In this document: positions 12,895 through 34,099 of the stretch, in pieces
How the letters are laid out: each line of letters begins with the position of its first letter
How positions within the stretch are numbered: position 1 is the stretch's first letter
NCBI GenBank assembly: GCA_020002185.1
Contig: CM034541.1
Coordinates: 50,514,562 to 50,578,561 of the forward strand
DNA length: 64,000 nucleotides
Direction: 5' to 3'
Source of the DNA: Paraescarpia echinospica
Taxonomy: Eukaryota; Annelida; Polychaeta; Sabellida; Siboglinidae
Translations under genes and position numbers: made by a program
Notes under the pieces: model-generated
What the model saw: the letters and a program-made list of their open reading frames with translations, nothing else
Databases searched by the model: none
Told to the model about the DNA's origin: nothing

Positions 12895-13540
12895 AATTTA
12901 AACCTGTCCATCTTCAATTCTTTGTCGAGTTTTGTTTTGAAGGAGAGGATGTTTTCAGCGTTCACTGTTTGCTGAGAAAGGTTGTTCCAGTCTAGGAAGA
13001 TGCGTTGTGATCCTAATATGAAGTCTGCTTGGTGTCTTATACAATTTTTTTTTGTGGCCTCGTGTGCGGTTTGTTGTGATCATGAAGAAGTCCTCTTGAT
13101 TGATGTCGTCGATGCCATTGATAATTCTGTAGACTTGGATCAGGTCTCCTCTTCTTCTTCGGTATGCCAGACTTGGTAAGTTAAGATGTTTCAGCCTGTC
13201 TTCATAGTTCGTTTCTTATTTCTGGGACCAGCTTGGTTGCTCTCCGTTGTGCTATTTAAAGGGTGTTGATGTCTACATTTCATTCATATCTCATCTGAGG
13301 CAACGGTATGATTGAGTTGGTAATTTCAGTCTCTGTAAACGTTCTTTGTATTCAAGGTCTTTGAAACCAGGAATTGATTTGATTGCACCGTGCTGAACAT
13401 TTTCAAGAACTGTAGTATGTGTCATTAAGAGAGGACCCCATACCTGATTAGCATATTCAATGTGTGGGCGGACGAGAGACTTACAAGTTATAAAAAAATA
13501 CTTTTCATCCATGTGATCGAAAGTACGTCAGATTATCTCC
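12895..13540 (-). pseudogene. LINE reverse transcriptase 3' fragments (two, nested)
   Basis: On the minus strand, 13291-13512 reads KSLVRPHIEYANQVWGPLL and IPGFKDLEYKERLQRLKLP, the thumb region of a CR1/Rex-type LINE RT. Further along the same strand (about 13260 to 12900) a second relative reads LAYRRRRGDLIQVYRIING and TTNRTRGHKKK. Frames are broken between the two. The same relics are found at 55385-56010 in segment B. Confidence 0.7.
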
Positions 13541-13599
13541 ATCATCGACTTGGCTTTATTAATTTTTTCTGACATATTTGTTTCAACATTGAGCACTTC

Positions 13600-16500
13600 T
13601 AACAAGGATACTCGTAACTTAAATTGCTTTAGTTGTACAATAATATATCGGCTCAATAATATATCAAAACTTTAAGAAGACCGGATCGAGCCAGTCTCCT
13701 TAAAACATCAGTCTCCTGTATGCAGTGAAGTATGCATAAAAGTCCCCCCATATGCCGTATATATATATACATATATATATATAATATTATATATGGAACT
13801 TCACTATTAAGGTCACAACTGGGACTGCATAAAAATAACCTGAGTAGCGAGGTGACCATATTAGTGGGACTAATTTCCTTTACTTTAAATTATATATGGA
13901 ACTAATGTCCTAGGGTGACCTTAATTGTAATGTGGGAGTATTAATGAGGTGACCGTCAATCGAGGTTCAACGGTAACTATATGATATGTGTGGATGTAGA
14001 TATTAATTCGTTTTTTGGCAGAATAGGGTGATGACAACAAGCGTCGTTTTGTGGACTTAACCATCTACAAGTGCATGTACTAGTGTTTTGCATATATACT
14101 CGTCACATAGCAAACACACTTTTGGTGACGTGTCTATCCCCACACTAAATTTCCTCCCAAGGATTCATTGTGTTGCCCAAAGGGATTATTGGGGTCAAAA
14201 CACCAATACAGTTTCTAAAATGGGGGATTGCTGTGAATGCCCATATCATGCTCGTCAAGCCATTTCAATTCAACATAATTCATGTACTGGATTGCACATA
14301 TGAGTTTGCGTCATTTTTTGCTGAGCTTCTAAATGTTGATATAATAATAGAGGTGGTTTTCTGGTGGAATGCTCTTGAAATTTATCTGGGCTTTTAAAAT
14401 TTTTAGTGTATGTAGCTGGTTTTCTATTGAAATGCTGTTGGAATAAACTTTTAAAATATTACGAATCGTTACGTAAGACTGGTGCAGACAACCCCACACT
14501 CATGTAGCACTTTGTTACGCTTGCCCACAGACCTTCCTCCATATTTTGTTAAATGGCCCCTTACATAATGTACACATATCTAAATTTGATTTTCGGAAGA
14601 GCATCCAACTGTACTTTACTTTCACAAGTTTGCTGTATGGAATATGTTTGAATTACTTATTATTTGAGCTGTAAAATTTAATTATTCCAATATATAATGC
14701 TAATTTGGTTTTCTTTTACAGGAGCAGGTCGGCGGCTTAATATAACAAGCGAGAATGTAAATAGTTGGGAGCCTAACACTGAAAAAGTGGGTTGATATGT
14801 TTGTTCAGATAGTTTCGTAACAAGTATATATTGTATTATTTTTCTGTCAAATGATACAAACATACGATACTATCTCTTTTGTGAAACATTAACACGCATT
14901 TATCAAATTTCACATATGTGTGTATGTACCATATGACTTTTCCAACAATGTAAACAATATATTTGTGACTGATTGCTGTTAAAGTATTGCGTAGTAAATG
15001 CAGACATACTACGTCATTTGTTTGTTTAAAAACTATTGAACTGTATTTGTTTATGACAATATTGTTTCAGTGTTGTGTGTGGCAGGTTCGATCCTTGCTG
15101 GTGTTTTTATAACCACACTACTGGTTGTGCACACACACTTATTCCATTCAATAACTTCAGCCATTTACAATAACTCCACCTAAACTAGATTAATTCCACT
15201 TAAACAACTATTGGAAATAGCACAGCAAATTAGCATTATGAGGAAAGGAGCCAACTTGCATGCTTTCTACAGAAAGACGTCAGTAGGCGACCACATGCTA
15301 ATGTTTCACAACTACAACTGTACTCTAGTATGAAAGGCTATACTGCTGATACTTACATCTTCTGGGGTGTTTGCTAAGGATGGGTGCAGTATGTGTACTG
15401 CTGTAATGCAATAGTAAATTTTTCACGTTTTAAATGTAGTTGTTTGCAAAACTTTGGATAATACCGAACTGTTTTTACTAGGTACTTTTGTTGGTTATGC
15501 AATTTGAACTGACATGTTTCATACAGTATGGACATTAATCACTACTGTATTTGTTTGCATTTTGAAAGAAATTAATCATGTATATTGCAAAGAATATTAT
15601 GTCCTGATGATATTGTTTCTAGATTATCAGGGATTCACTGTATCATATGAACACTTGATGTAACATGATAACATTTGTGTAACAACTTTATTTACACATA
15701 TATGACCATTTACACACATGCTGAATAATATTAGGCATTGGTAATCGACAATAATATTTTCAGACAAACGTGTGTATTAAAACAGGCAATTCTCTTTTAC
15801 TTTACCTCATGATCAGAGGTAATGAGCGACTAACTAGTCTTTTTGTTTTCACTTCTCTAGATTTAAGTACGAATCGACTTGCTCTTTGCTTAATTAACTG
15901 AATGCCAGTTTTTTATGTGTTTACCATAAAGGTGCATGCATTATATTCAACAATACGTTGCCAGTAACATCTGTACTGTTACTGCCACCTTGAGTTTGTA
16001 AATACAAGTTTCAAGAGACAGTGTTACTGAATATCAAATGTTTCAAACAAGTTCAAGTTAGGGAGTAACAAAATAATGTTCTTCTTGAGGAAACTTTGTG
16101 TTTCTTTATATAAATATAAATAATACACAAGTTACTATTGATAGTACACATACTTGAATCGTGTGAACTTTGCTTATTACCCCCAACATAGACAAAAAGC
16201 CAACATTACACAGCTAAATATAGATCTACACACCATAAACTGTGTTCATTTTGGAACCAATGAGCATTCCAGTTTTCACCAGGTCAGATATCCACAGCTA
16301 GACAAGCATGTCGATAAATCTTTAAATAGTTTACTACTAAAACCTAACGTTTCTTTACCGTGTGCTTTTGAGATTTTCATTATAACATACTGGCATATAA
16401 AATATAATGCAACAATGCTGTATTTTTAACATAGATATCATTAAACCACACATGGTTCATCCAACTCTACAAAACTACAAAAGCAGGCATGGGACATGTG

Positions 16501-17820
16501 AAATGTTGCACATTTTAATGAAACACATCACCAGATTTCTTTCCCCTACAACTCTGTTTCTGTGTGGAAAAATATTCAATAAGTACTTGGCATATTTGGC
16601 ATTTGTGCACTATAAGTACTTTGTATCAGACCATCACTTCAGTTGGCATGATCTAGTGGTATGATTGCATATAATTACCTTATCTCTACATCATAGTATC
16701 ATTGCTTTGTGAATCTGCCCTTCAACATTCAAAGACAACATTTTCATGCTAGAAAATAAATTAAAATTACAAAGAATTCACATATACAGGCTAATGGTAC
16801 AATTCATTCTGACATTAGTTAACCTCCTGTTTTACATAGACCTGCTCCAGTGTCTAGATTCTGTTGGCGTCATAAGTTTCAAATCAAGTATCAACCAGCT
16901 GAGATATACCATTTTAATCGGTTACATTTCTGTTAATAAAACTAATAAAGCTGACAAAATAATACATTTTGTTTAAGAAACAAACTGTCTCCAACACTAG
17001 CCCTAAAACATAAAGAAACAAAAACACTGTATCAACTGGACGGCTGCAGCAAAGAGTTATGTGACCTGTTGCCTAGCAAAACCTCCGTCAAGTCATCAAA
17101 AAATATGTAGTGGGTTCGGACATTCCGTCAAATATTTTGTAGAAATTCTGGTCACAAAAGTGTTTCTTTATGGCAAAAATATAAGGCAAAGTTTGTAAAG
17201 TGCCACAGTATGTGATAATGTTTGATTTAGGAGATGTCATGCAGCAATAGTAATGTAATTTACGTATATATAACAATTAACAACATTGTTGGCAAAGCAA
17301 AACTTGACGGAGGTCACATTCAAAATTCAACTGTGATGTAAGCAAAACCACGACGTAGTGGATACATCAATTATTATACAAACTAAAAAAATACTTATCC
17401 ATCAGAAGGGATAACTTGGTTATTTGTATGGTTAGGTAAGAAACCAAGTGCTTAGATTGGTAATTTGTGTGCCACATGGCGCTACCTACATAGACGCAAG
17501 AGACGGTTTGATGAAGATTGCATAACTTGGGACAGCTGTATGCAATGCCATGCATGTTTCCTGTGATTGTTCCATGCTGCATTTTTAAGTACAAGATATT
17601 TGTGAGACTTACCAATTTACATGTTGCCGCATGTGTTCAGCATGCATGATACTCTCAAGACTTCCTTTCCTCCCAGTCCTGAAGTGAACAACATCGTCCA
17701 TATTTATCTACTCATACCACAGCTAATATCACAAGTACCTGGGTTTTATTTTTAAACTGAAAAAATGCTTTAAAATTCGTATAGGTTAAAGTAAAATTAG
17801 TATGTTTTAATGTTGGGAAT
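13600..17820. other. AT-rich sequence without recognised genes (segment A)
   Basis: Both strands hold only short frames that look like chance. A TA-rich microsatellite lies at 13755-13795. A perfect tRNA-type B-box string (ggttcgatcc) at about 15089 has no A-box at proper distance. Conservation with segment B reflects duplication, not selection. Confidence 0.5.
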
Positions 17821-17845
17821 CAACTTCACTCACTTCCGATTGCGA

Positions 17846-19262
17846 CTACATCAGACATCCGCAATCTGCTCAACAAGTCACTAACAACATCGTGCGGGCT
17901 CGATCCCCTACCAACATGGCTGCTGAAAGAAGTCAGTGAGAACTTAGCATCTGGTGTTGTTCCATGCTGCCTGAAACTTGTCAACGTCACCCCTGTGCTT
18001 ATGAAGGCAAATCTCGACAACGAAAATGTGGACAGCTATAGACCGATATAAAACCTGCCTTTTGTGTCAAAGCTATTCGAAAGGTATGTTGCACGCTGTC
18101 TGGTCGACCACTTGACTGATAACAATATTCTTGAACGATACCAACAAGCCTACCAATCGCATCACTCCACGGAAACTGCGCTAGTTCTGGTACATAATGA
18201 CATCCTCGAGGCGCTAGACCGGCGGTATGGAGTCATCCTGGTTCTACTTGACATGTCGGCCGCCTTCGGCACAGTTGACCATGAAATTCTGCTCAGCCGA
18301 TTAGAACAACGCTTCGGAATGGTTGATTCCGTGCTGGCATGGATGCGATCATATCTAACCGACCGGTCGCAGTCAGTAAATATACCAGGTGGCGCTTCCA
18401 TCAAATCTAGCGTCGCTTATGGCGTCCCTCGATGTTCAGTGCTGGGGCCTCTGTTGTTCTATGCGTACTCAGCATCTATTGTTGATATCACCAGAAGACA
18501 CAACTAGGGCTCCCACCTCTGCGCGCACGATACCCGGCTATACGTCAAGTTTGAGATGACCGAAACCAACAGAATGTTGTCTCTACGCCGAATTGAGCAC
18601 TGCATCACCGACGTCCGCGTGTGAATGATAACAAAACGGTCGCATTTGTGTTAGCATCACGAAACAATTAAGCGAAACACAATTGATATCACCGTGATCA
18701 CAACTGGCGACTGCGACATAACGTCAAGACCTACTGCCAGAAACATCGGCGTTGTATTCGACTCGGAAATGTCGATGGTCGTCATGTAAAGAACATGTCC
18801 TGCGTAGCGTACTATCATCTGAGGAACATTGCGTTGATCCATTCGAGCCTAACACAGAAAGCGCAGTCCGTCTTATGTACTCTCTTGTCATTTCGAGAAT
18901 TGACTATGCGAACTGTCTGCTATATGACATCCCCGACTGCAAAGAGTGCAAAATGCTGCTGCTCGGCTGGTGGTCCGCTGCCACAGATGGGACCACATCA
19001 CACCGGTATTCAAGAAACTGCACTGGCTTCCCGTAAAGCAACGCATTCATTACGCAATTCTGCTACTGACGTTTCGTGCTCAACACGCGGACTGGTTCCA
19101 GCTTACATCACCGACTTACTCCACGAACAAAGAGCTACTCGAGTGTTACGTTCAACTACAAACAATGACTTGCACGTGCCACTATCTCGCAGCCGAAACG
19201 GCGTCAGAACTTTCTCGGTATCTGCTCCACGACTATAGATTCACTTCCAAGCGAGATGAAGG
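17846..19262 (+). pseudogene. CR1/L2-type LINE reverse transcriptase, multiply broken
   Basis: Continuous family features across several frames: a pre-RT block with LLKEVSEN, then VDSYRPI followed by a stop near 18049, KLFERYVARCLVDHL, HSTETALVLVHNDI, VLLDMSAAFGTVDHEILL (motif A, about 18240), YGVPRCSVLGPLLF (motif B), and after breaks the C-terminal AARLV, DHITPVFKKLHWLPVKQRI and FSVSAPRL. Motif A has Gly where the first catalytic Asp is expected (AAFGT instead of AAFDT), and motif B has RCS for QGS. Both changes are also in segment B, so the element was dead before the segment was duplicated. Confidence 0.8.
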
Positions 19263-19379: not shown

Positions 19380-19685
19380 ATGTGTTTAAACTAATATTAC
19401 ACAATCTTTACTGATTTATTATTAATATACCTTTAATTATAACGATCATCTTTAGCGGTAACTTATTCTTTTTAATTTGTGTATATATTTTCATTTATTT
19501 TAAATAATTTAATATTATAAATTTTATGTAACTTATTAAAGTTCTGCATTTATAAATATATAAAACACAAACCTTCTAATACACAAAAAGCTTGTATGAA
19601 AGCAACGTTCAGGGGGTTTTCGTTTGGTATTCGACACACATGTCCAAATTATCGGAGTCTTCTATGTATGATGACATCTGAGATT
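19380..19685. other. AT-rich spacer
   Basis: No gene or repeat recognised between the LINE 3' end and repeat R copy 2. Confidence 0.4.
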
Positions 19686-20709
19686 GTTGGTATATTCGGC
19701 AATAATTTCATTTAATATTTATTGAATGTTGGTTGAAACATATTATAGAGCAAACAAATCAAAACAAGTCATTAGTCAAAATCAAGTCATGCGTGCAATT
19801 CACGAAGGTGGTAATTGTATGTAATGGCATAATAAAACGAAAAGAAGTTGTAAAGTTACAAATAATAATGTTCGTGGGCATATAATCCGCTCGTGTTTTG
19901 GGCCGGTTGACATGTACGACCCCACAAATAATCTGTAACACTACAAGTATAATATATTATGTAACCCTGGCGGAATTGTTTCGTGCAAGCGGTTGCATAG
20001 GCTATTGTTATGTCAATGGCCAGACGGGGGTAGGGTAGCTTGAGCCACACCCAGTCGCAGTTTGCTAGGGATCATGGACGTGTCCACAAATATATACGTA
20101 CAGTTCTTTCGGCTCCGTATTACGGGTATCAATATACACGGCCTGGTGAGTTATTTGTTTTTCATGTTTATATGTTATATATAATAGTGATATTATTAGA
20201 ATAATGCATAACTTGTTGCCTCATTACCCGTCAGTTCGGGCATGCCAGCTATAGTATAACGAGTGTAGCAGCGTTCGGTCGCAAAATGTTAAACTGTGTT
20301 TACAGACGACTTACATATCTAGCAAGCATCCTAACTAATTATTGTGATATATAGGTATATCGTATGCATACGTTTGACTTTAGATAATGTGATAGTTACT
20401 AGTTAAAAGAAGTACTTAGCTAAAACAAGTTTCTCTGACTCTTTGTTTGTTCAAGTTCACACAACTATCTATAGGGTGACTGATTATTACATTCGGTTGA
20501 ATTAACACGTCTAATATTAGAACAGCCGACGCAACTTAGTAATGTAGCATTGGCTGCTTGACTACAGTGTTGCAATGTTATAGTCGCAACTAGCACGCTG
20601 TCTCTCTGTGTCCCTGCCCATATATAGGCCTTTATATGTCTGTTTTTCTCCCCGTCTCCCCTTTTCCAACTCTCCCTCTCTCCCCGAATCTCTCTCTCTC
20701 TCTCTCTCC

Positions 20710-21837: not shown

Positions 21838-22640
21838 GCTTATCGTGATCGGAATGTGAACGGAGAACAATGGATTTTTAAAAACAATAAACGAAAAGTT
21901 AAAAGCATGAAAATAAACGTTGTATTCGATCAGTGTGGGGTCAGGAATCGTGTGGGGCAATGATATTAGAGAAATTCGATGTAAAGAGACATTTCTCGAT
22001 GAATGTACTAACGTGACCGGTAACTTTTTTCCTAAAACAAATTCCTCAGTAGACTAGGCAGTTTGTGTTAAGTGCGCATGCGCGTAATTTTGAAATCTGT
22101 TGCGCGTGACTTATCGCGATTGGAATGTGAACGGAGAACAAATGGATTTTCAAAAACAATAAACGAAAAGTTAAAAGCATGAAAATAAACGTTGTATACG
22201 ATCGGTGTGGGGTAGGGAATTATGTGTTAAAGTGATATTAGAGAAATTCGATGTAAAGAGAGATTTAACGATGAATGTACTGACGTGACCGGACACTTTT
22301 TTCCGAAAACAAATGCATGGGATGTGTTAAGTATGCAATCGCGTAATTGAGTAAGATAATGGTATTAGTGTTAAGTGCGCATGCGCGTTATGTTGTAGAC
22401 AATGACATTTCAAAAACAATAAACGATCAGTTAAAAGCATGAAAGTAACCGTTGTACACGATGAGTTTGGGCTCTGGAATCGAGTGGTGTACCGATATTA
22501 GAGAAATTCGATGTAAAAGTCACATTTGACGATGAATGTACTGACGTGACCGCTAACTTTTTTCCTAAAACAAATTCCTCGGTATCAGCGTCGTTTGCGT
22601 TAAGTGCGCATGCGCGAGATTTGTAAGACAACTGTAGACT
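21838..22640 (+). repeat. Three tandem ~270 bp repeats upstream of the early promoter
   Basis: The anchor caataaacgaaaagttaaaa recurs at about 21885, 22157 and 22417 (last copy slightly changed), each followed by gatattagagaaattcgatg, then cgtgaccg, acttttttcc, and ending in ttaagtgcgcatgcgc (decayed at the end of unit 2). Period is about 260-272 bp. Placed right before a TATA box and a compact gene cluster, the array resembles a viral enhancer or origin region. This role is inferred from position and palindromes only. Confidence 0.7.
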
Positions 22641-22657
22641 GTTAAGTGCGCATGCGC
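22073..22657 (+). promoter_or_regulatory. Four TGCGCATGCGC palindromes (NRF1-like sites)
   Basis: TGCGCATGCGC occurs at 22073, 22376, 22605 and 22647, mostly preceded by ttaag. The sequence matches the palindromic site bound by the animal transcription factor NRF1. The last copy lies 15 bases before the TATA box. Four copies of an 11-bp palindrome in 600 bp are not expected by chance, although three are part of the tandem unit. Confidence 0.55.
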
Positions 22658-22671
22658 CTTATTTTGGAAAG

Positions 22672-22678
22672 TATATAA
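22672..22678 (+). promoter_or_regulatory. TATA box of the early transcription unit
   Basis: TATATAA, preceded by the NRF1-like palindrome and followed 97 bases later by the ATG of the RPA-like gene. Transcription would start near 22700. No other TATA candidate lies closer to the gene. Confidence 0.55.
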
Positions 22679-22774: not shown

Positions 22775-23530
22775 ATGGCAGATGAGATTCCACCAAAAAA
22801 GATCAAGGCACCACGCAAGCAGTCACTGAAGGCGGCCAGCGGTCAACAGCAGCAACCTTCGCCGGCGGTAGCAGCGGTGTCAACGGGAGCGGCACCTGTT
22901 AAGCGGCCCGTGGTGCTCATTGCGCTACCGCTGGCTGCTGTCCGACGTAAGCGAAGCGCCGAAGAGGCGTCCTTGGGAACCGTCGAGATGGCTGAGGGGC
23001 AGCCACCCCTGACGCGGAGCGCGTCACTCGAGCGCGAATGTGAGTCGACGGCATCGACGCGCGCCACATTGGTGAGTCTGAGGCACCTGATGTGTGCTGA
23101 CACCGGTGTGTATAAACTTCTGTTGCCCGTTATGATCGACGCTGTGTCGTACAAAGAGGTTGGCGCCTATTTGGGATGTTCCCGTTGTCGCCGGAAATTG
23201 CAGAAAAGCAAAGGCGGGGAAATGATATGCCGAACGCACGGTGGAGTGTTGGTGCCGAAATATTACTTCGCGTTGCGTGTGATGGTGAAGGACGGTGAGG
23301 AGGAGGAAGACGAGCTTTGGCTTACTTTGTTTGACAGCCAAATATCTAATCTCGTCGAGTACACGGCCGAGTACTTGGTGGAGTTGAGCGAGGAGGAACT
23401 CCGCGATACTGTGCTTGAGTTAACCGGCACGAAAGTGGAAATCAGTGTGCGTAAGACGACTTGGAACGGGGAGCCCTCGTATACCGTGCGCACACTGAAG
23501 AGATACAACGACGACGACGACGACGACTAA
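22775..23530 (+). CDS. RPA-like single-stranded DNA-binding protein (OB fold with zinc ribbon)
   Basis: A 251-residue protein from ATG 22775. Residues 1-99 are disordered and basic (PPKKIKAPRK, VRRKRS), suggesting nuclear entry. Residues ~125-245 resemble the C-terminal DNA-binding domain of replication protein A large subunit: a zinc-ribbon CxxC with a later CxxH (LGCSRCRRK, MICRTHGG), then YYFALRVMVKDG, ELWLTLFDSQISNL, TAEYLVELSEEEL, VEISVRKTTWNGEPSYTVRT. The fourth zinc ligand would be His instead of Cys. It probably coats single-stranded DNA during element replication, next to the polymerase gene. A strong splice donor (TTG|GTGAGT, 23072) lies in phase 0 after residue 99, so spliced transcripts would keep the N-terminus and drop the OB fold. 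The tail is an aspartate run. Confidence 0.65.
   Translation: MADEIPPKKIKAPRKQSLKAASGQQQQPSPAVAAVSTGAAPVKRPVVLIALPLAAVRRKRSAEEASLGTVEMAEGQPPLTRSASLERECESTASTRATLVSLRHLMCADTGVYKLLLPVMIDAVSYKEVGAYLGCSRCRRKLQKSKGGEMICRTHGGVLVPKYYFALRVMVKDGEEEEDELWLTLFDSQISNLVEYTAEYLVELSEEELRDTVLELTGTKVEISVRKTTWNGEPSYTVRTLKRYNDDDDDD
23072..23077 (+). promoter_or_regulatory. Candidate 5' splice donor inside the RPA-like gene
   Basis: GTGAGT after ATTG matches the metazoan donor consensus well. It falls exactly between codons 99 and 100 (phase 0). All four downstream acceptor candidates (23554, 23763, 23954, 24054) also open phase-0 frames. Confidence 0.45.
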
Positions 23531-23554
23531 TGTGTTGTGGTGTGTTGTTTGCAG

Positions 23555-23737
23555 GAAGGATGGCCGATACTGGTAGATTTGTTGACACACGCGAACGTGC
23601 AACAACGAATGAGAGAGCGTCGTAGTCGTGAAATAACCGAGGAGGCCGCTCAACTATTAACCGAGACGGCTGAGAATTACATAAGGGCGTTTTGGCTAGC
23701 TTACGAAGAGAACTTATTTTTTAGTATTATTCCGTAA
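23555..23737 (+). CDS. Early-region cassette 2: helical C-terminal frame behind an acceptor
   Basis: Preceded by ctaatgtgttgtggtgtgttgtttgcag, i.e. branch-like ctaat, pyrimidine-rich run and AG. From the first base after AG the frame is open for 60 codons (EGWPILVDLLTH, QQRMRERRSREITEEAAQLL, YIRAFWLAYEENLF) and ends TAA at 23735. It lacks an ATG at its beginning; the only early ATG (23560) is in another frame and stops after 21 codons. This suggests translation as a spliced tail of the upstream N-terminus (about 159 residues in total). The sequence looks helical and charged. Function unknown. Confidence 0.4.
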   Translation, partial: EGWPILVDLLTHANVQQRMRERRSREITEEAAQLLTETAENYIRAFWLAYEENLFFSIIP

Positions 23738-23763
23738 CTATCAGTTGTGCTTATTTGCTGTAG

Positions 23764-23934
23764 GAAGTGCGCCACATACTGGAGGGTATGCTAGCAAACA
23801 ACGAAAGGATGCGTGCTCGGTACGAGGAGGTTGCCACGTTCGTAAGAACGTTGTTGGAACGCGAAGTGGAGGGGTCGATAAAGAGGGAGGCGGAGGAGCA
23901 GGCCAAGAAGGAAGGTCAAAAGCAGGCGGACTAA
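23764..23934 (+). CDS. Early-region cassette 3: charged helical C-terminal frame
   Basis: Starts right after gcttatttgctgtag, with gtaactat 26 bases upstream as a possible branch site. Phase-0 frame of 56 codons: EVRHILEGMLANNERMRARY, EEVATFVRTLLEREVEGS, then a lysine/glutamate-rich tail ending QKQAD-TAA. It resembles cassette 2 in pattern (hydrophobic heptads, RMR then acidic/basic helix), so the two could be diverged duplicates or coiled-coil partners. An internal GTAAGA (23842) is also in phase 0, which would let this piece act as a middle exon joined to cassettes 4 or 5. Function unknown. Confidence 0.4.
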   Translation, partial: EVRHILEGMLANNERMRARYEEVATFVRTLLEREVEGSIKREAEEQAKKEGQKQAD

Positions 23935-23954
23935 TCATAATAATGTGTTTGTAG

Positions 23955-24035
23955 GAGGAGCTGATGCAACACACCAGGTGTGAATGTATGTGCGACTTCC
24001 TACACGCGTTGCTGACGGTGGTTCGTAAAGAGTAG
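23955..24035 (+). CDS. Early-region cassette 4: 26-codon frame
   Basis: Begins after ctaatcataataatgtgtttgtag, where ctaat contains the stop of cassette 3. Phase-0 frame reads EELMQHTRCECMCDFLHALL and ends VVRKE-TAG. Three cysteines sit in a short helix-like peptide. Too small to judge alone; its support is its place in the chain of acceptor, frame, stop. Confidence 0.3.
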   Translation, partial: EELMQHTRCECMCDFLHALLTVVRKE

Positions 24036-24054
24036 AACATGCTTTGTGCTGTAG

Positions 24055-24729
24055 GGTGGAAGCGGAGTGCGTGACGCCAACGTATTGGACGCCATCATCG
24101 AGGAGGCACTCGGTGTATCGGATGTGAGCCGAGCGCGTCCTCCACCGACGTATAACGAAAACCTGTACACGCCGCTGGGGACGATGGGACCGACGTGCGC
24201 TCCGTGTTGGAGTCTATCGGAGGAGGTGGCGTCGCAACGTGAAATCATCGTGCCTCGCAGGGGCCGGTTGGTCTGCCGATATGAACGCCTCGCAATGGGC
24301 CTCGTCGCCGAGATCCTCGGTGAGATGATACTGGAGCGGGCGCGGGATCATTGCGGGGTATGTGAGCCCAATGAAGGCTGCCCATATGTACACATGCCCG
24401 GCTATCGTGCAGGACGGCCGAACCGTGTATACATGCAGCGTTTCGACAACACGGGCTGTAATGTAACGCGATATTTCAACGCCGTCATGGAAACGATTCT
24501 GCGTCGGTCCCTTATCCCGTGCTTCACGCGACTCGTGCAAATTCTACACGAAACTACGGTGTCAACTTCTGGTGGTCAGCAGCCGCAAACGGGTCGTGCG
24601 GGAGAGTTGTATTTGGTGCAGTTTGTGTCGGACTGGCTTCTAGGAACGAACTGGCGCGAGTACATGAACCGTGTGCAGCTGGAGTCGGCCGTGCACACGT
24701 ACGTGCAGCGCAGGAGTGGACTCGAATAA
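24055..24729 (+). CDS. Early-region cassette 5: Cys-containing protein of unknown family
   Basis: Begins after aacatgctttgtgctgtag. The phase-0 frame is open for 224 codons to TAA 24727-24729. The first 43 codons (GGSGVRDANVLDAIIEEALG onward) contain no ATG, so full use needs a spliced-on N-terminus (about 323 residues with the common exon); otherwise translation would start inside at TMGPT. Visible features are a PPxY motif (RPPPTYNENLY), of the kind bound by WW-domain ubiquitin ligases, a cysteine cluster (DHCGVCEPNEGCPYVH), and a helical C-terminus. I do not recognise the family. The stop codon overlaps the polyadenylation signal. Confidence 0.5.
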   Translation, partial: GGSGVRDANVLDAIIEEALGVSDVSRARPPPTYNENLYTPLGTMGPTCAPCWSLSEEVASQREIIVPRRGRLVCRYERLAMGLVAEILGEMILERARDHCGVCEPNEGCPYVHMPGYRAGRPNRVYMQRFDNTGCNVTRYFNAVMETILRRSLIPCFTRLVQILHETTVSTSGGQQPQTGRAGELYLVQFVSDWLLGTNWREYMNRVQLESAVHTYVQRRSGLE

Positions 24730-24747
24730 AGAACGAACAATCGAATA
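24726..24747 (+). terminator. Polyadenylation signals of the early unit
   Basis: AATAAA occurs at 24726-24731, where its TAA is the stop codon of cassette 5, and again at 24742-24747 within a repeated cgaataaagaac. A third AATAAA lies at about 24830. This closes a transcription unit of about 2 kb from the TATA box. Confidence 0.6.
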
Positions 24748-24759
24748 AAGAACACTGCT

Positions 24760-25152: not shown

Positions 25153-28100
25153 ATGCCACCACCACCTTCTCTTCCTTCTAGATGGCAATGTCCGAAATGC
25201 GGGGGTTATTTCGCGAAACAATCGACGTTAGAGCGACACGCAAAGAGTTCGAAAAGATGCGGCAACGATGCACTATGCGTAAAACGCCGAGAGTGCCCAA
25301 AATGTGGCGCGACGTACACTACGCGCGCCGCTATGCTACGACACTTGAAGCTGCGGTGTGGCCGTCAGACGGCGCCACCTCCTGGTAGTAGTAATGAACC
25401 AGTGGCGGAGGCGTCAGCCGCTAGGGCGTCGTCACCCGACGATCTTCAGCGTGTCGTGGACGAGCACCGGCGTAGCATAGAGACGTCGGTAGCGCGCGGT
25501 GCCGTGCAGTCCCGTTACAACTATCGCATGACCGCCTGTACGAGTACGCTGGTGCTAGAACCGCGTCTGAGGGAAATGTTTCGCGAACAAAAGAATGCGT
25601 TTAAAATTAACGTAAGCTACGGTTTTGTATTACGCCACAAGGTGCCGGGTCGGTACCGATATTTTCATTCTTCCTGTAACTGTTGCGGTCGCCTCCTCGA
25701 AACGCCCGCCCTAGTTACCGATAGCCGTTCGTTCGAACGATTCCTCGACGCCGTGCGCACGACCGACGTACTGCAGTACGCCATCGCGCAGCGTCCCGAC
25801 TCGGGGTGGATCGTCGAGCTCGTAACGAACGCCACCTACTTCGTGAACGCCATCATCGCCCATCCTATCGGGTGCGTTGGCGTAACGCTCCCCGCCTACG
25901 TTCGCGACAACAAGAAGATTGTGACGTTGGCGAAAGATCGTCGAGGCACGCCCTACAACGATCATCTATGCCTCTTCCGCTGCATCGGTCTCCACCTGCA
26001 AGGTGGCGGCCGACGAGGCGAAAACCACCAAATCGATACGACCCGTTTAACGAAAGTCGCTAAACGTCTGCATGCGCAGTATTGTCGCGTCACGCGCACG
26101 ACGGCCTCGAACGGTGTGCGCCTGAACGAACTGGATCGCGTGGAGACAGTTTTCGGCATCAACGTCGCCGTCTATCGACTGACGAATGACATCGCCGAAC
26201 TAGTCCGTCGGTCGCGCGAAGCGCACCACACGACCCTGAACGTCAACCTGAACGAGACGCACTTCTCGAACATAAGCGACCCGCGCGCGTACACGAACAC
26301 GTCAAAGTGCGGAAAATGTGGCAACGCGTGGAGCGCGTGGGCGTTACGACGTCACGAAGCGACGTGCGAAGGTGGCGTTCGTCACGTGTTCCACGGCGGT
26401 ATCTACCGACCGTCGCCGTCCGTATTTCAGCGGCTCGACGACGAAGGCATCGACGTCGGCGACGACGACCTGCGCTACTACCCGTACCGCGCGACGTTCG
26501 ATTTTGAATGTTATTTCGCCGATAACGATCTGCCGACGGATACCAACAAATGCCGGTGGATCGCGCGACACGAACAGCTCAGCGTGAGCGTCGCGTCGAA
26601 GGTGCCCGGCCACGAAGCGGCGCGGTGTTACATCACGACCGGCGATTCGGCCGAACTCGCGCGTCGTCTCATCGACGACCTGGAAGCCGTGAGCGCGGCG
26701 GCGTGCGCAATTCTACGCCCCCGCTACGACGCGACCTTCGAGGCGCTCTACGCGCTCGACACCGACTGGCGGCGACGGTGCAACGACGACGACGCCGACG
26801 CGTCACCGTACGCCGCACTCACCGACCGCCTGTGGACGCACCTTCGTCAAATGCCCGTACTGGGATTCAATTCGGGTAAGTACGATCTCAGTGTCGTCAA
26901 GAAGTACTTGACTCCCCTGCTGATAACCGGCGACACGCAGCACACGTCGTCGGCGTTTACCATTAAACGTCAGAACAATTACATGTGCCTGTCGACGACG
27001 ACGTTGAAGTTCCTCGACATAACGAATTACCTCGCGCCCGGCGTTAGCTACGATCGCTTTCTGAAAGCGTACGGTTGCTCGGCAACGAAGGGGTACTTTC
27101 CGTACGAACATATCGACGCGTTGACGCGTCTGGACGAAACCGCCCTGCCGCCGCGCGAAGCTTTCTACAGCCACCTGAAACGCGAGGGAATCTCCGCGGA
27201 GGCGTACGAGATTTGTGCGACGGCGTGGCGTGACGAGGGCATGACGTCGATGCGCGATTTTCTGATGTGGTATAACAATCGAGACGTGGCGCCGTTTCTC
27301 GAGGCGCTGTTTCTATCGGCGCTGACGTATCGACATGTTCAAGGACGCCATCAGCGTACCGGGGTTGACGTTGTTGTACCTGTTCAACAACCTACCGACG
27401 TCGATCCATTTCTCGCTGTTCAACGAGCCGAACAAAGATCTGCACCGTCTGCTGCAGTCGCAGATCGTCGGCGGCCCGTCGATCATCTTCGCGCGCCACC
27501 ACGAGGCCGGCGTGAAGGCAATTCGAGGCGGCGACGACGCGCCGTGTCGTTCGATAGTCGGTTTCGACGCAAACGGCCTCTATCTATGGGCAATAATGCA
27601 GGAGATGCCGACGGGCTGGTACACGCGCCGGCGTGCGGAGAACGCCTTTCGAGCGGAACGCGTGCACCGCTACGGCCGTATGGCCGTGGAGTGGTTGATG
27701 TGGGTGGAGGCGCAAACCGGTGCGCATATACGTCACCAGTTGAACGGACGCGAGAAGCGCATCGGAAAGCACCGAGTCGACGGCTGGTGCGCCGCCACGC
27801 GAACGGCGTATCAATTTCACGGCTGCTATTTTCACGGCTGCCCGACGTGCAAGACGCACGTAACGACGAACGCGTCAACGGACAACCGATGACGACGCTG
27901 TACGCCGCGACGATCGCCGTGACCACCTACCTGCGCCGTTTCGTCGATGACGTCGTCGAAATGTGGGAGTGCCAGTGGCGCGCCGTGCGACCGCCCGCGG
28001 CGCCGACGCCGCCCGACGCGTCACGATGGCAACCACCGACCACGCCCATTACGCGCTCGACGATACTGGAGGCGGTGCGCGACGGCTCCCTGTTCGGTCT

Positions 28101-29294
28101 CGTGCAGTGCGATATCGCCGTGCCGGAAACGCTGCGCGACAAGTTCGCCGAAATGCAGCCCGTGTTCAAGAACGTCGATATCGTGCGCGACGATCTCAGC
28201 CCGTTCATGCGCGACTACGCCGAGTCGCACGATCTCCTCACCCGACCTCAACGGACGCTCGTCGGTAGCTACTTCGGCGCCGAGATCGTGCTCGCGACGC
28301 CCCTCCTACGCTGGTATCTGGCGCACGGTCTCGCCTTCGATCGCGTCTACCAGGTCATCGAGTACGCACCGATCGCGTGCTTTCGCCGCTTCGCCGACAC
28401 GGTCTCGGCGGCGCGACGCGAGGGCGATATCGATCCCGACAAATCAATCATCGCCGATACCTTTAAACTTCTCGGCAACAGTTCCTACGGGAAAACGATT
28501 ACGTCGATCGGCACCGGGAAATCAAGTACGCCACGCCGGTCGGCGCCTCGATACTCGTCAACAACCGTCGCTTCCGGCATCTCGACGTCGTCGTCGACGA
28601 CGCTCTGTACGAGGTGGCGCTGAATAAGCGCAAAGTCGTCTACGGCCTGCCGATACATATCGGCTATTTCTTCTTGCAGTACGCAAAATTGAGGATGCTC
28701 GAATTTTATTTCTATTTCGTCGACGCCTACATCACCCGTCCGCTCTTCCAGTACTGCGCTATGGACAAGAACTCGGCGTACATCGCCCTCGCCGGACGTA
28801 ACGTCGACGCGCTCGTGCCGGAAGAACGTCGCGAACACTACTTCCGGAATCGATCGCTCTGGTTTCCGGCCGAATGCTGCGACGCGCATGTGGACGCGTA
28901 CTTACGACGGCGGGTCGCCGGACTAGCGTGGGCGGCGGAGGACTGCTGCGCGCGCCGACGCCTGTTCGATCGTCGAACGCCGGGTCTCTTCAAAGAAGAG
29001 TGGCGCAGCGACGGAATCGTGGCGCTGTGCAGCAAGACCTACTACTGCTTCGGCGGCGACAACGGACCGAAGTACAGCACGAAGGGACTGAGCAAGCGTC
29101 AGAACGACATCGACGAGCACACCTTCCTCGCCGTACTGCGCGACCGACGCAACGGCGTCGGCTGGAACCGCGGTTTCCAGGTGAAAGACTCGTCCGTGTT
29201 GACGTACGTTCAAGAGCGCGCGGCGTTGAGCTACTTCTACGCTAAACGCCGCGTGCTCGACGACGGCGTCACCACGGCGCCGATACTTGTCTAA
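25153..29294 (+). pseudogene. Protein-primed-type DNA polymerase B, three frame changes
   Basis: Family B DNA polymerase of the viral/Polinton type (DNA_pol_B_2), the replicase of the element. The N-terminus has two zinc fingers (CPKCGGYFAKQSTLERH; CPKCGATYTTRAAMLRH) and a third near residue 385. Exonuclease motifs follow: Exo I DFECYF (~450), Exo II GFNSGKYDL (~570), Exo III YNNRDVAPF (~706). Near 27330 the reading passes to a second frame holding GFDANGLYLW (motif A region), near 27880 it returns to the first frame (VVEMWECQW, then NSSYGKT, motif B), and near 28505 to a third frame with motif C and the C-terminus. Motif C reads MDKNSAY where the family normally has DTDS, so the second catalytic Asp is Asn. 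It is therefore inactive as assembled. Confidence 0.85.
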
Positions 29295-29472: not shown

Positions 29473-29930
29473 TTAATGTGGTTTTAACCAATCGAATACG
29501 AGACAGTCATTAGCCACCCGATCAGTGCCGAATAGGCTCTGGAACGTCGTCAACGGCATACCGCGACATCGGAGGAGAAGGTAGGCGACGCAATATTGTC
29601 CGCACACGTTAGAGACGGCGCTCTGCAGCCGCTTGTCGTTGTACGTCCACGCGTCGCCGCAGTTGCGGTGCAGGAATGCGTGGAAGTCGTCGTGCAGCGG
29701 CGGCAGACCGTACGAATCGAAGTACTCGCCTCGCCGGTCGACGACCACGTAGACGGCCACCCAGTGCTGCCCGGCTCGCCGCCGTCGTCGGTGTTGCACA
29801 CGAAGGCCGTCGGGTAAACGGTGGCGGTGGTGGTGACGGTAAGTAGCGCAACTTTAGGCACGACGCCGACGACGATACGTTTAGCGTACGTATCGTGTTC
29901 CAGGCGACGCATCAGTTGAAACGTATCCAT
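29473..29930 (-). pseudogene. Adenain-like cysteine protease, one frameshift
   Basis: Adenovirus-type maturation protease (C5/Ulp1-like), expected to cleave virion proteins. It starts at ATG 29930, five bases after the capsid stop, with MDTFQLMRRLEHDTYAKRI and a conserved VCNTDDGGEPG region. Near 29785 the frame changes; the other frame carries the catalytic part: GQHWVAVYV (His), GEYFDSYGLPP (acidic residue), WTYNDKRLQ and CGQYC (nucleophilic Cys), ending CLVFDWLKPH at 29473. All catalytic residues are present but split over two frames. It converges with the polymerase gene. Confidence 0.85.
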
Positions 29931-29935
29931 AGTTA

Positions 29936-31226
29936 CTAGTCGTACACGACGTTCCGGTTCCTGTCGATCTCCACCACCGTCTCGAATTCCGCGTACACGA
30001 CGACGTTCACCGGACGGGGTAGCGGCGTGCCGAAGTGCATTTCGGCGCCCACGGTCCCCTGACGCACGACGTTGAAATGGTCCCCGTCGCAACAGTCGGG
30101 GGTCAGGTCGAAACCGAAGATGGTGTAGCCGGCGCCGAAGTCCGTACGCGATACGTCGTTCCCCTCGTCCTCGTACGCCTTTCCGGTCGCCTCGAAGAGA
30201 TTCATGTAGCTTCGCACGTACCGGTTGTGCGGGAAGTCCGGCTGCAGCGGTTTGCTCGGCACCTGACGTCCGTCGATGACGAGCGTGAGGAAGTTTATGT
30301 CGTTGTGCCGCGCGTAGAACGGATTACTAGGGTTGTCGCTGTTTTAGGCGACGTTATCGATCATCATCAGGAATATGCGTTTCGGAATCGTACCCATGTA
30401 CAAGTTCTCGTGCGTGTGCGACAGCGTACCCGCCGTTATCGAGAACGATTTGCAGTCGATGCGGCGCATCGGGAACTTAGCCGTTCCCAACGTCCACGCT
30501 TTGATATGTCCCATCTGGACGTCCGGGTTCACCTTCACCTTTCGCACGTGCAGGCGAATCGCCTGCAGCACGATGCACCAGCCCGGTACGGCTTGCGCGC
30601 CCATGAGTGCGAAGGCGTCCTTCGAGCGCACCATGCGTATTTTCGTGTCGACGCCTTTCGGCATGAGCCTGTTTAGCATAAACGCGTCGACGTGCACGGG
30701 TCCCATCATCTCCACCTCGTCGCTATCGGCAGTCATGACGCGTCGTGCCTCGAACCCGACGTTGTTGTTACCGAGCGTGTCCATCTGTCCGGCGGTGTCT
30801 TTGTACCACAACGACCCCGTGAGATGCGAACGTTTCGCGTCGCTACCGAAACTCAGCAGCGTCTCGAGGTAGGCCCACTTCGCGTACGTATTGGTCGACG
30901 GCGTCACGAGGGTGCCGTTCAGCGACACGTCGATTTGACTGAACATCGAATGCAGGAAATTATTGGTCGGCGCCACGTTGGCGCCGGCCGCCAGATTGGT
31001 GCCGTCCCCCTGAACCACTTTGAAGCGCACGTACACTTGAAGGCTCGCCAGGTCCGTATAGTCGTTGCCCGAACCCGGGATGAGGAACTGGATAGGGCCG
31101 CCGCCGTCGAGAGTCGTCAGCGGCTGGTAGACGATCCACTGACTGCCCTCGACGCTCGTCTGCGTCACCGGCCCGGTGAACAGGTCCAGTTCGGCCTTCA
31201 CGCCCTCGCACGATGCGCCATTCACG
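29936..31226 (-). pseudogene. Major capsid protein, in-frame TAA, fused upstream to the core-like frame
   Basis: Full-length double jelly-roll capsid protein of the Polinton type. It starts with MAFVNGASCEGVKAELDLF and contains DYTDLASLQVYVRF, NNFLHSMFSQIDVSLNGTLV, YLETLLSFGSDAKRSHL, LWYKDTAGQMDTLGN and IPKRIFLMMIDN. A single in-frame TAA at 30344-30346 interrupts it; the same frame then continues (NPFYARHNDINFLTLVIDGR, GYTIFGFDLTPD, VVYAEFETVVEIDRNRNVVY) to TAG at 29936. Upstream, the core-like gene is read straight into it because of a small frame slip. Apart from the stop the gene looks intact. Confidence 0.9.
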
Positions 31227-31681
31227 AACGCCATAATTACTCGTCGAATATGTCGTCCGTTTGACGCACTCTTCCGCCTATTGACGCTCGTCGCCGCCAG
31301 GCGCGGCCTCTTTATGCCGGCGCCGCCGCGGGGGCGCTGCTGCTGCGTTTTTTTCTTTCTCTTCTTCTTCGGCGGTGCCTGCGAATTCAATAGGCCGTCG
31401 AGAAGATCGGCGCCGGCCTCCTTCGCGCGTCGTTTTATCGACTGTTTCAGATTGCCGCCGGCGACGACGTCGCGCGCCACGCGCACGCCGGTGTTGAGCG
31501 CACGTTTTCCCAAAGCCAACGAGCCTCTCTTGATAAGTGGCATGACGCTTCGAAACAGGCTCCCGAAGAGATTGCCCAGACCGTGACCTCGTTGCCCCCG
31601 ACCACCGACGAAGGCCGGCAGCTGACCGCCGACCTGACGAACGTAGTAGTCCACGTACGGGTTCTTCGACGACGGCGGCAT
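31227..31681 (-). pseudogene. Small basic core-like protein, read through into the capsid frame
   Basis: Homologue of the 10046-10486 protein: NPYVDYYVRQVGGQLPAFVG, GHGLGNLFGSLFRS, PLIKRGSLALGKRAL and a lysine-rich tail. In copy 1 it ends at a TAA after IFDE. Here the DNA for that end (gacatattcgacgagtaa) is still present, but an indel in the preceding region shifts the frame, so the stop is bypassed and the frame continues into the capsid ATG. The one-frame fusion is thus a mutational accident, not an ancestral state. Confidence 0.7.
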
Positions 31682-32959: not shown

Positions 32960-34099
32960 TTATAGGTCCACGAGCGACTCGGCGTCGATCCAGCTGTTGA
33001 AGGAGGCCGGATATCCGCTCCATTTTACGAGCGCCTCCGAACCACCGCCGCGACGACGCCGACGACGCTGTAGAACCGCCTCCACGCGATACAGTTTGTC
33101 CTTCGGAACGACTACGCGTTGTAGTTCCGGTTCGTAGAAGGCGCCCTCTACCGGCGACCCGGCGTCGTCCTTCAGGCGATAAACGGGCGGTTCGGACGGG
33201 TGCACCTCTACGACGGTGAAGAGTTCCTCGCTCCAGTTAGCCATGTATCCTTTTTTGAATTGACCCCTCGTCTTGCTGATACGTACGCGATCTCCCTCGC
33301 GCAATTTCGGTTTTCGCCGTTACCCGCAGCCGACGTCGCCACCGTACAGTCGTTGCCATACGGCCTCCTGATTCGTCGCGTCGACACTCGCCGGCGTCCT
33401 ACCGATGCTTCGGTGGTAGGCGTTGTTGTACGATCGCACGAAATCCGGTAACGCCTCTACGTAGCGCAGCGTCTCGTGTTTCGTAAAATAGCGCCACATA
33501 CGCCTCTTCAAAGTTCGATTAAACCGTTCCACGACGCTCGCTTTAGTCTCCACGTTACGCGTCACGAAATGATGAACGCCGCGACTCTTTAGGAACGTTT
33601 GCAGGGGCCGGTTCAAAAACTCGGTCCCCTTATCGGTCTGCAGCGAGTTCGGCGTCTCGTCGTCGCCGCTCAGCAGGCGCTCGAAGGCCGCGACGAGCGA
33701 CGGGCCGGACATACTCTTCAACGGAACGCACCACGCCCACTTCGAAAACACATCGATCACCGTCAGTAGGTATGTTATACCGTCGTTGTTCGTTTTCAGC
33801 CTAGTCAAGTCGACCAGATCGGCTTGCCACTGCTGGTTTCGACCACCCACGATGACGCGACGACGTTTGAAATGACGTTTAACCGGTTTGTGTAGGGTAT
33901 AGGCGTCCTGCGACGCTAGCCACTTCTCGACGGCCGGACGTCGGAGCTTCGACGCCCGGTGCAACGCGTCGACGCCGCCATAACTTCCCACCCGTTTCGG
34001 ATCGAAGTAGACGCTATTCAGGTCGTCGACGTCGACGTCGTTTCGTTGCTGTCGAAGCTTTCGTTTTGGACGACGACGACGACTCCACCCGGACACCAT
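32960..34099 (-). pseudogene. Polinton chromodomain integrase (copy 2), one frameshift
   Basis: Starts at ATG 34099 (MVSGWSRRR). The DDE core is intact: QADLVDL, LQTDKGTEFLN and VVERFNRTLK. It continues through YHRSIGRTPASVDATNQEAV, where copy 1 is already shifted, to a stop at 33320 after an indel in the ggcgacgtcggctgcgg region. The remaining frame (32960-33304) carries GDRVRISKTRG, the SH3-like part and the chromodomain (LVKWSGYP, SWIDAESLV). The break is at a different place from that in copy 1. Confidence 0.9.

Follow-up and report, generated by a model that had tools for sequence, protein, structure and literature searches.

Could one transcript of a Polinton/Maverick-type element give several proteins that share an N-terminus and differ in their C-terminal tails? 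The question is raised by a 64,000-nucleotide stretch of Paraescarpia echinospica DNA (the window), in which one predicted splice donor is followed by four predicted acceptors, each with a phase-0 frame downstream. With a probability of roughly 0.85, we think that the locus is one Polinton/Maverick-type transcription unit with alternative 3' splicing, in which an RPA domain would be swapped for other tails; splicing itself, its early timing and the function of the tails we infer from the sequence. The predicted unit is composed as follows, with acceptors a2 to a5 opening cassettes 2 to 5 (c2 to c5):

21839..22666, + strand: direct repeats with four GCGCATGCGC palindromes (22074, 22377, 22606, 22648), putative promoter/enhancer (self-BLAST, motif count)
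22672..22678, + strand: TATATAA, putative TATA box (by sequence)
22775..23071, + strand: exon 1, codons 1-99, basic N-terminus common to all predicted products (ATG at 22775)
23072..23077, + strand: putative splice donor GTGAGT, phase 0
23072..23530, + strand: remainder of the RPA-like ORF (RPA70-C domain) and stop, translated only with the intron retained
23528..23554, + strand: stop/branch-like CTAAT, T/G tract and acceptor 1 (a2)
23555..23737, + strand: cassette 2, 60 codons and stop
23738..23763, + strand: spacer and acceptor 2 (a3)
23764..23934, + strand: cassette 3, 56 codons and stop
23935..23954, + strand: spacer and acceptor 3 (a4)
23955..24035, + strand: cassette 4, 26 codons and stop, the weakest coding case
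24036..24054, + strand: spacer and acceptor 4 (a5), without CTAAY branch
24055..24729, + strand: cassette 5, 224 codons and stop
24725..24749, + strand: AATAAA twice (at 24725 and 24744), a shared putative poly(A) signal (by sequence)

The layout given by the first-pass annotation proved exact: the GTGAGT donor lies right behind codon 99 of the RPA-like gene (23072-23077), and the acceptor AGs end at 23554, 23763, 23954 and 24054 and open phase-0 frames of 60, 56, 26 and 224 codons. Counted from behind each stop through the following AG, the distance is 24 nt for the RPA ORF and 26, 20 and 19 nt for cassettes 2, 3 and 4. The values for the three cassettes are as claimed, as are GAC-TAA-T at the RPA and cassette 3 stops and the lack of an early ATG in cassettes 2 and 5 (first in frame at codons 19 and 44, respectively). 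In cassettes 3 and 4 the first in-frame ATG is at codon 9 and codon 4. Cassette 5 was also said to end on AATAAA, which holds in the window, where the stop lies inside 24725-24730, but not across the copies described below, of which 29 of 76 have A at position 24728.

Unspliced RNA would be translated into a 251-residue protein, composed of the 99-residue basic N-terminus and an RPA70-C-like ssDNA-binding domain. If the sole donor, at 23072, were used, the whole RPA domain would be spliced out and codon 99 would continue in phase 0 into any one of the four tails. The RPA ORF and the first three tails would each stop just ahead of the next acceptor, with the T/G tract beside or inside the preceding stop and, at the first three acceptors, with the putative CTAAY branch string placed likewise. 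Splice choice would therefore decide whether a nuclear-type basic N-terminus carries a DNA-replication domain or one of the accessory tails, the largest of which would be the helical, possibly metal-binding cassette 5 protein. The RPA-like ORF matches Pfam Rep_fac-A_C (E 4.5e-8, above cut-off) and yeast Replication factor A protein 1 (PDB 6i52_C, E 7.7e-5), two matches that make up its likeness to the C-terminal domain of RPA70 (DBD-C). In contrast to RPA70, the C-terminal domain here stands alone, follows another basic N-terminus and is encoded within a putative intron.

The Polinton setting proposed by the first-pass annotation is backed by two genes, one for an rve integrase and one for an Adeno_IVa2/A32-like ATPase, which together with a PolB-like gene make up the likeness to Polinton/Maverick elements and adintoviruses:

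25153..28623, + strand: PolB-like ORF with N-terminal C2H2 zinc fingers, the next gene downstream (56% identical to its counterpart in the divergent locus L003)
33320-34150, - strand: rve integrase (Pfam rve E 5.1e-15)
35417-36094, - strand: A32/IVa2-like packaging ATPase (Adeno_IVa2 E 1.3e-5, above cut-off)

The ATPase also matches Pox_A32 just under the cut-off (E 1.5e-4), and the PolB-like ORF matches DNA_pol_B_2 below it (E 0.065), its reading seeming to go on in another frame at 28467-29291. As regards the jelly-roll capsid proteins of Polintons, a 445-aa ORF on the - strand (30344-31681) gave no Pfam match and no useful PDB sequence match. The element is multicopy within one large genome, and the window itself holds a second copy (Pfam rve E 3.7e-13 at 7580-8281). 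Next to this inverted partial copy, 5692-6729 matches a stretch of about 1 kb at 19677-20693, as expected of a terminal repeat; a right-hand partner for the main copy was not found. All four copies of GCGCATGCGC in the window, a palindrome that we take to be an NRF1-type motif, fall in the repeats at 21839..22666, which may act as promoter/enhancer of the unit.

Sequence of this size contains many AG and GT dinucleotides, and one might ask whether the arrangement arose by chance inside a decayed element. On a home-made splice-site score that is blind to reading frame, the acceptors a2, a3, a4 and a5 rank 1, 2, 5 and 8 among the unit's 103 AGs, and the donor at 23072 ranks third among its 156 GTs; in the whole window 60 of 8,374 GTs, the donor itself counted, score at least as high. 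The two-cassette chain arose in 4 of 20,000 first-order Markov simulations and the three-cassette chain in none, by criteria that were set after the data had been seen, a point in favour of chance. Chance is nevertheless a poor explanation of the chain, because no simulation reproduced three cassettes, and the layout recurs, with purifying selection, in 76 near copies and 19 divergent loci; we regard a chance origin as barely credible.

The near copies, selected via cassette 5, were fetched from the same genome (80, of which 76 were usable), and counts among them are not independent because the copies share ancestry. GT at the donor is preserved in 75 of 76 and the whole GTGAGT hexamer in 71, and the acceptor AG is kept in 76 (a2), 76 (a3), 74 (a4) and 74 (a5), a retention that is by itself unexceptional: 37 of 127 AGs are kept in at least 74 copies and 25 of 156 GTs in at least 75. 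Another GTGAGT, at 23040, lacks such conservation, its GT being present in 28/76. The bases of TATATAA are identical in 72-75 copies, except 22676 (13), and the exon-1 ATG is kept in 74. Many copies are broken, with the full RPA ORF intact in 44/76 and cassette 5 in 62/76; the frames of cassettes 2 and 4 are open in 67 and 71, respectively, and the in-frame TAG of the acceptor itself blocks reading from upstream in 74 (c3), 74 (c4) and 72 (c5). Indels shared among copies have lengths divisible by three in 44 of 46 coding cases, compared with 4 of 12 non-coding ones (p 1e-5).

CTAAY precedes a2 in 69 of the 76 near copies; for the acceptors of cassettes 2-4 together, the near copies have it in 206 of 226 cases. 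Its frequency at control AGs is 11%. It is absent at 10 of 18 divergent cassette 3 acceptors, and at a5 it was found in 0 of 69 near copies and 0 of 19 divergent loci. That the acceptor of cassette 5 is the weakest and has no CTAAY is odd, being unexpected for a distal site that has to compete. Across the near copies the a2 triplet is TAG in 68 of 76, GAG in 7 (in the alignment used) and CAG in 1; CAG, which stands at the window's own a2, is unusual among them.

Beyond the near copies, donor and cassette order are kept in 19 of 20 divergent loci, with cassette 4 unmatched in five and cassette 3 in one. The donor is GT in all 19 and GTGAGT in 17, and the acceptors of divergent loci mostly rank 1-7 among about 100 AGs. 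L112 and L113, with an RPA identity of 42-44%, carry GTGAGT directly after TCG at exactly the homologous codon, ranking third and second, respectively, by donor score within their own RPA frames; L114 and L115 yielded no identifiable donor. The first-pass annotation had suggested searching related elements for the order of donor, acceptors and stops and for conservation of phase, and the outcome favours its proposal of one N-terminus with alternative tails: homologous copies keep the donor, the acceptors, their order and the phase, and shared length changes are nearly all of whole codons. Cassettes joined in one frame were not noticed in any locus on an unsystematic look.

Element families differ in how many tails they have, in part through tandem duplication. 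L003, L112 and L113 possess only the last cassette, cassette 5, opened in each by the best-scoring TAG acceptor, and no intermediate ones; L104 has a tandem second copy of cassette 3, some other loci carry extra cassettes, and one to five acceptors are seen between families. At slightly better than even odds, we hypothesize that the unit is an evolving array for tail exchange, in which an unchanging exon for a nuclear N-terminus, with its one donor, would be followed by tandem-duplicated, diverging, phase-matched cassettes, and splicing would pick either the replication protein or accessory factors. Tandem duplication and subsequent divergence would thus give rise to families with one to five tails in one genome.

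Exon 1, the RPA part and cassettes 2, 3 and 5 are under purifying selection. Their dN/dS across divergent loci, a tblastn-based estimate and thus biased toward conserved segments, is 0.24-0.37 in frame against 0.79-1.97 in shifted frames: 0.32 against 1.23 and 1.86 for exon 1, 0.37 against 1.38 and 1.26 for cassette 2 (19 loci), 0.28 against 0.79 and 1.07 for cassette 3 (18 loci) and 0.24 against 1.38 and 1.97 for cassette 5. Cassette 4, at 0.62, shows no separation from its shifted frames (0.58, 0.98). In the near copies, a synonymous excess among shared relative to singleton changes is seen for cassette 5 (odds ratio 4.4, p 2e-15), exon 1 (2.8, p 4e-5), cassette 3 (2.4, p 0.014) and cassettes 2-4 pooled (1.98, p 0.003). 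The same test is not significant for cassette 2 alone (p 0.10), the RPA part (p 0.07) and cassette 4 (p 0.30), and cassette 3 shows an excess in one shifted frame too (p 0.004). The weak coding evidence for cassette 4 and the lack of intermediate cassettes in L003, L112 and L113 would suit a unit with a single functional intron of the type found in those three loci, from the donor to cassette 5, with cassettes 2-4 being retained inserts or decoys without a useful protein product. However, cassettes 2 and 3 keep phase, take shared indels as whole codons in 11 of 12 cases, have the low in-frame values given above (0.37 and 0.28, against 0.79-1.38 shifted) and own the two best-scoring acceptors of the window's unit, and we consider a single functional intron unlikely.

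Alternatively, each cassette could be a small gene of its own, with translation starting at an internal ATG or by re-initiation, and the acceptor-like strings could be T-rich spacers. The early ATGs of cassettes 3 and 4 would fit, as would the conservation among near copies of Met9 in cassette 3 (74/76), Met44 in cassette 5 (74/76) and Met19 in cassette 2 (71/76), but Met4 of cassette 4 is kept in only 47/76. The L003 cassette has no in-frame ATG in its first 111 codons, and this type of cassette 5 is conserved over all 111, L112 and L113 still aligning from residue 1; in the near copies the cassette 5 codons ahead of Met44 show no more than a weak synonymous excess (odds ratio 1.73, p 0.10), which counts against the splicing reading. 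Independent genes would also leave unexplained the synonymous-site conservation of the donor hexamer: codons 98-103, which span the donor, have third positions that hardly vary (identical in 16-19 of 18-19 loci), compared with a mean of 0.66 over 230 RPA codons. This alternative appears very unlikely.

A stop followed by a nearby acceptor, in series, resembles operons processed by trans-splicing, and the stops here lie within 19-26 nt of the acceptors. A spliced leader might accordingly be added in trans onto the acceptors of an operon-like unit, the leader possibly giving the start codon. Against this, a good donor whose phase suits all cassettes is conserved, two loci with an RPA identity of 42-44% still having it at the homologous codon, and the PolB ORF, by inspection, has no such acceptor directly ahead of its ATG. 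We know of no spliced leader in siboglinids and hold trans-splicing to be extremely unlikely.

For alternative 3' splicing from one donor, the comparison with adenoviruses made by the first-pass annotation is apt. Ad5 E1B has the same one-donor, several-acceptor plan, with three acceptors and a 79-residue N-terminus in common; its products are E1B-496R/55K, the longest, encoded by the full-length transcript, and E1B-93R, -156R and -84R [PMC9663300]. The likeness, here at the level of sequence, consists of one donor in a long ORF, several acceptors and a constant N-terminus (79 aa in E1B, 99 aa here). Unlike in Ad5, the host gene here is RPA70-C-like and not E1B-55K, with no sequence relation found or claimed, and there are one to five acceptors, differing by family, every tail stopping short of the acceptor that follows. 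The polyomavirus early region (T antigens) likewise combines a common N-terminus with alternative splicing to different C-termini, mainly by alternative donors, whereas here one donor is combined with several acceptors. If transcripts confirm the reading, adenovirus-style economy (one promoter, one N-terminus, many C-termini) would exist in Polintons too, which would bear on the origin of splicing-based early regions in adenoviruses and their relatives. The many copies per genome and the families with one to five acceptors would then form a natural series for the birth of phase-matched alternative exons.

That no such arrangement has been described for Polintons fits the open-licence literature searched, in the accessible parts of which no alternatively spliced Polinton unit was found [including PMC11071296, PMC12220804, PMC8363768, PMC6431247, PMC5803895]; the terms splic and intron are absent from PMC11071308. 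Endogenous protist viruses are treated as intron-free for gene prediction in another report [PMC10120064], and prediction of this kind would miss the unit or cut it into pieces. The database homologues of cassette 5 (P0002-P0004) come without exon 1, none of the three being found joined to exon-1 sequence, and the sole named one is recorded under a bacterium as a hypothetical protein. In Pfam scans bearing on a relation to E1B-55K or its tails, the RPA ORF matched Rep_fac-A_C alone at E up to 1, and the window's cassette 5 had no match. C100, C103, C109 and H113 of cassette 5 are invariant and its AF2 model consists of helices (mean pLDDT 51), consistent with a product that may be helical and possibly metal-binding. 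Foldseek searches with low-confidence models of cassette 5 returned titles of the Bcl-2 family proteins Mcl-1, Bcl-xL or BAK in 3 of 14 and 3 of 30 rows, at E values of at least 3.9; a further row, 4k5b, is presumably BCL-W, likewise at E of at least 3.9 and from a low-confidence model.

The first-pass annotation had placed a single donor and four phase-matched acceptors in a Polinton early region, and re-reading of 22775-24729 bore out this layout, which, with its upstream sequence, comprises the following features:

21839-22666, immediately 5' of the unit: direct repeats that contain all four GCGCATGCGC palindromes of the 64-kb window
22672, + strand: TATATAA, putative promoter
22775 (start) to 23528-23530 (stop), + strand: RPA-like ORF
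23072, + strand: donor GTGAGT, directly after codon 99 of the RPA-like ORF
23554, 23763, 23954 and 24054 (ends), + strand: acceptors opening phase-0 frames of 60, 56, 26 and 224 codons (cassettes 2, 3, 4 and 5)

The stop-to-acceptor distances are 24, 26, 20 and 19 nt. We hypothesize that one promoter, TATATAA with the upstream GCGCATGCGC repeats, whose palindromes we take to resemble NRF1 sites, would give one RNA; unspliced, it would encode the RPA-like protein, and spliced from the single donor it would encode the N-terminus joined to one tail. The RPA70-C match (Pfam residues 127-233; yeast Replication factor A protein 1, residues 130-242) lies entirely 3' of the donor, so that splicing would excise the complete DNA-binding domain and retain the basic N-terminus of exon 1, which has two lysine/arginine clusters, presumably of the nuclear-signal type. 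We infer a trade-off in which less RPA would be made when more of the tails are produced, and likewise infer the roles of the tails. In its splicing logic, as read from the sequence alone, the unit would work like adenovirus E1B as described in PMC9663300, and no evidence was found for its membership in the E1B gene family. The consulted parts of open-licence full texts on Polintons hold no description of such a unit, in keeping with the earlier statement that no such arrangement was known for these elements. The splicing logic is already known; its occurrence in this kind of element and the growing array of tails are new within the literature searched.

Within the window, the sites were ranked by a home-made, frame-blind score whose frequencies came from general knowledge and not from training. 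The four acceptors rank 1, 2, 5 and 8 among 103 AGs of the unit and the donor ranks third among its 156 GTs; across the whole window, 60 of 8,374 GTs, the donor included, score at least as high. Three-cassette chains arose in none of 20,000 runs of simulated sequence, under criteria fixed post hoc. In a codon-usage test with the RPA and PolB ORFs as the training set, the proposed frame beats both other forward frames in all four cassettes, and one antisense frame scores slightly above it for cassette 2 and for cassette 3. Against shuffles, the result is clear for cassettes 3, 4 and 5, which were equalled by 0, 15 and 0 of 5,000, but cassette 2 (640 of 5,000) does not stand out.

A cassette-5 search of the animal's own assembly (1.084 Gb, 3,111 contigs) gave 2,014 candidates, and all 150 that were scored matched, so the genome holds at least 150 matches. 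From these, 80 stretches of about 2.2 kb were taken and 76 kept (L052, L065, L072 and L073 were dropped for low coverage or identity), a set biased toward intact cassette 5 by its selection. The donor GT is present in 75 of the 76 copies and the full hexamer in 71, and the acceptor AGs of cassettes 2-5 in 76, 76, 74 and 74. Among control sites, 37 of all 127 AGs of the unit (median retention 69) are kept in at least 74 copies and 25 of all 156 GTs in at least 75, so dinucleotide retention by itself is suggestive evidence and does not decide the matter. Among indels present in four or more copies, 44 of 46 coding cases comprise whole codons, compared with 4 of 12 cases in spacers and the 5'-UTR (Fisher p 1e-5), counts in which a single event placed differently by pairwise alignments may appear twice. 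When changes common to four or more copies were compared with singletons, the shared ones showed a synonymous excess in cassette 5 (odds ratio 4.4, p 2e-15), exon 1 (2.8, p 4e-5), cassette 3 (2.4, p 0.014; an excess is also seen in one shifted frame, p 0.004) and cassettes 2-4 pooled (1.98, p 0.003); in this test, cassette 2 (p 0.10), cassette 4 (p 0.30) and the RPA part (p 0.07) were not significant on their own. Frames open at about full length number 59 for exon 1, 44 for the RPA ORF, and 67, 69, 71 and 62 for cassettes 2-5.

The arrangement also recurs in more distant relatives. A database homologue of cassette 5, P0003, gave at least 150 matches (62-82% identical to it), and 20 loci were fetched. 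The RPA gene is present in 19, the other (L109) having cassette 5 only, and all 19 have GT at the donor codon position (GTGAGT in 17, GTGAAT and GTTAGT in one each). Cassette matches follow the order of the window, at identities of 35-87% for cassette 2 (19 loci), 50-84% for cassette 3 (18), 59-76% for cassette 4 (14) and 57-77% for cassette 5 (20). The donor position and the cassette order, which the first-pass annotation had proposed to seek in related elements, recur in 19 of them, with cassettes 3 and 4 matched in 18 and 14. Acceptors were placed for cassettes 2-5 in 18, 18, 14 and 19 loci and fall among the ten best AGs in 18, 17, 14 and 17 of these; the placement rule failed for cassette 2 in L101 and cassette 3 in L111, where the AG with the highest score, a TAG, lies close to the expected position. 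Between-family dN/dS is 0.32 for exon 1 (1.23/1.86 in the two shifted frames over identical aligned codons), 0.37 for RPA (1.96/1.94), 0.37 for cassette 2 (1.38/1.26), 0.28 for cassette 3 (0.79/1.07), 0.62 for cassette 4 (0.58/0.98) and 0.24 for cassette 5 (1.38/1.97), so this test does not prove cassette 4 to be coding. Codons 98-103, which span the donor, show almost no variation at their third positions (16-19 of 18-19 loci); the mean for 230 RPA codons is 0.66, and 87 of these codons reach 17 of 19. Hence, the donor seems to be conserved beyond its protein meaning, though the 18-nt stretch around it, at rank 7 of 633, is not the most conserved.

The number of cassettes varies among families. 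L003, a 3,450-base contig, is deposited as sequence from a bacterial endosymbiont that lives in the tubeworm Escarpia laminata; the presence of this element fragment in a public endosymbiont MAG is probably contamination by host DNA. It starts inside the RPA gene, which places the donor outside view, and continues with the RPA tail, a stop forming CTAAC, a TAG acceptor 23 nt on (rank 1 of 44 AGs), a cassette-5-homologous frame of 271 codons with no ATG in the first 111, and PolB; no intermediate cassettes lie between the RPA gene and the cassette-5 homologue. The first 25 residues after the acceptors of L003 and window cassette 5 match better than 99,978 of 100,000 shuffles. Among the matches to the L003 cassette, four deeper loci, L112-L115, were selected. 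In L112 and L113, RPA is 42-44% identical to that of the window, and TCG|GTGAGT falls at precisely the homologous codon; by score it ranks third in L112 and second in L113 within the RPA frames, both of which are interrupted. In each of the two, one best TAG acceptor leads into cassette 5, whose frame in L112 breaks off after 82 codons. Two good acceptors are present in L114: one opens a 49-codon frame weakly similar to cassette 3 (E 0.021), and the next opens cassette 5. L115 has one good acceptor. The 5' part of RPA was unmatched in both L114 and L115, and no donor was located in either. Of the seven P0003-like loci, six (L093-L098) have an extra TAG acceptor between cassettes 3 and 5 (about 1918-1961) with an in-phase frame of 23-47 codons (at least 35 in five of six), a cassette absent from the window; in the seventh, L092, the corresponding frame stops after 5 codons. 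In L104, a second cassette-3-like cassette (1740-1876) with its own acceptor lies just before the first and looks like a tandem duplication, which would be one source of this variation.

CTAAY strings, putative branch sites, precede 11% of 9,337 control AGs drawn from stretches 1-76 of the 80 and lie upstream of the acceptors of cassettes 2, 3 and 4 in 69/76, 67/76 and 70/74 near copies and in 18/19, 8/18 and 14/14 divergent loci. At the cassette-5 acceptor (24036-24054 in the window) none was found in 69 near copies or 19 divergent loci; the cassette-5 acceptors of L003, L112, L113 and L114, four loci with fewer cassettes, do have one. In the window, the CTAAY at the RPA and cassette-3 stops shares bases with the stop codon, and this would account for the close spacing of stop and acceptor.

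Cassette 5 is the best conserved cassette and has the weakest of the four acceptors. Its product is predicted, at low confidence, to be helical, and C100, C103, C109 and H113, invariant in four homologues, suggest a metal site. In weak Foldseek lists obtained with its models, Bcl-2 family titles account for 3 of 14 rows in one and 3 of 30 in the other, none with an E below 3.9, and a Bcl-2-like fold is doubtful.

Elsewhere in the window, the PolB reading seems to run on in another frame at 28467-29291 (+), the first PolB ORF ending at 28623, so the polymerase of this copy looks broken. An open frame at 29476-29853 (-) contains FDSYG and GQYCVAY strings, which we take to recall an adenovirus-type cysteine protease, as a candidate. 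A NADAR-domain gene (36098-36550, -; Pfam E 6.8e-24) adjoins the ATPase gene and is predicted to give the element an accessory enzyme of the ADP-ribose type. A second, inverted partial element copy occupies 5692-11398, up to a 1,000-N gap at 11399. Its 6754-11398 part matches 34928-30565 at 85-87%; the flank on its outer side, 5692-6729, is a direct-orientation match to 19677-20693, the pattern expected of a terminal repeat. Two direct copies of a repeat about 6.2 kb long (12399-18638 and 54881-61339; 98% identity) lie 42.5 kb apart, the first beginning right after a 1,000-N gap.
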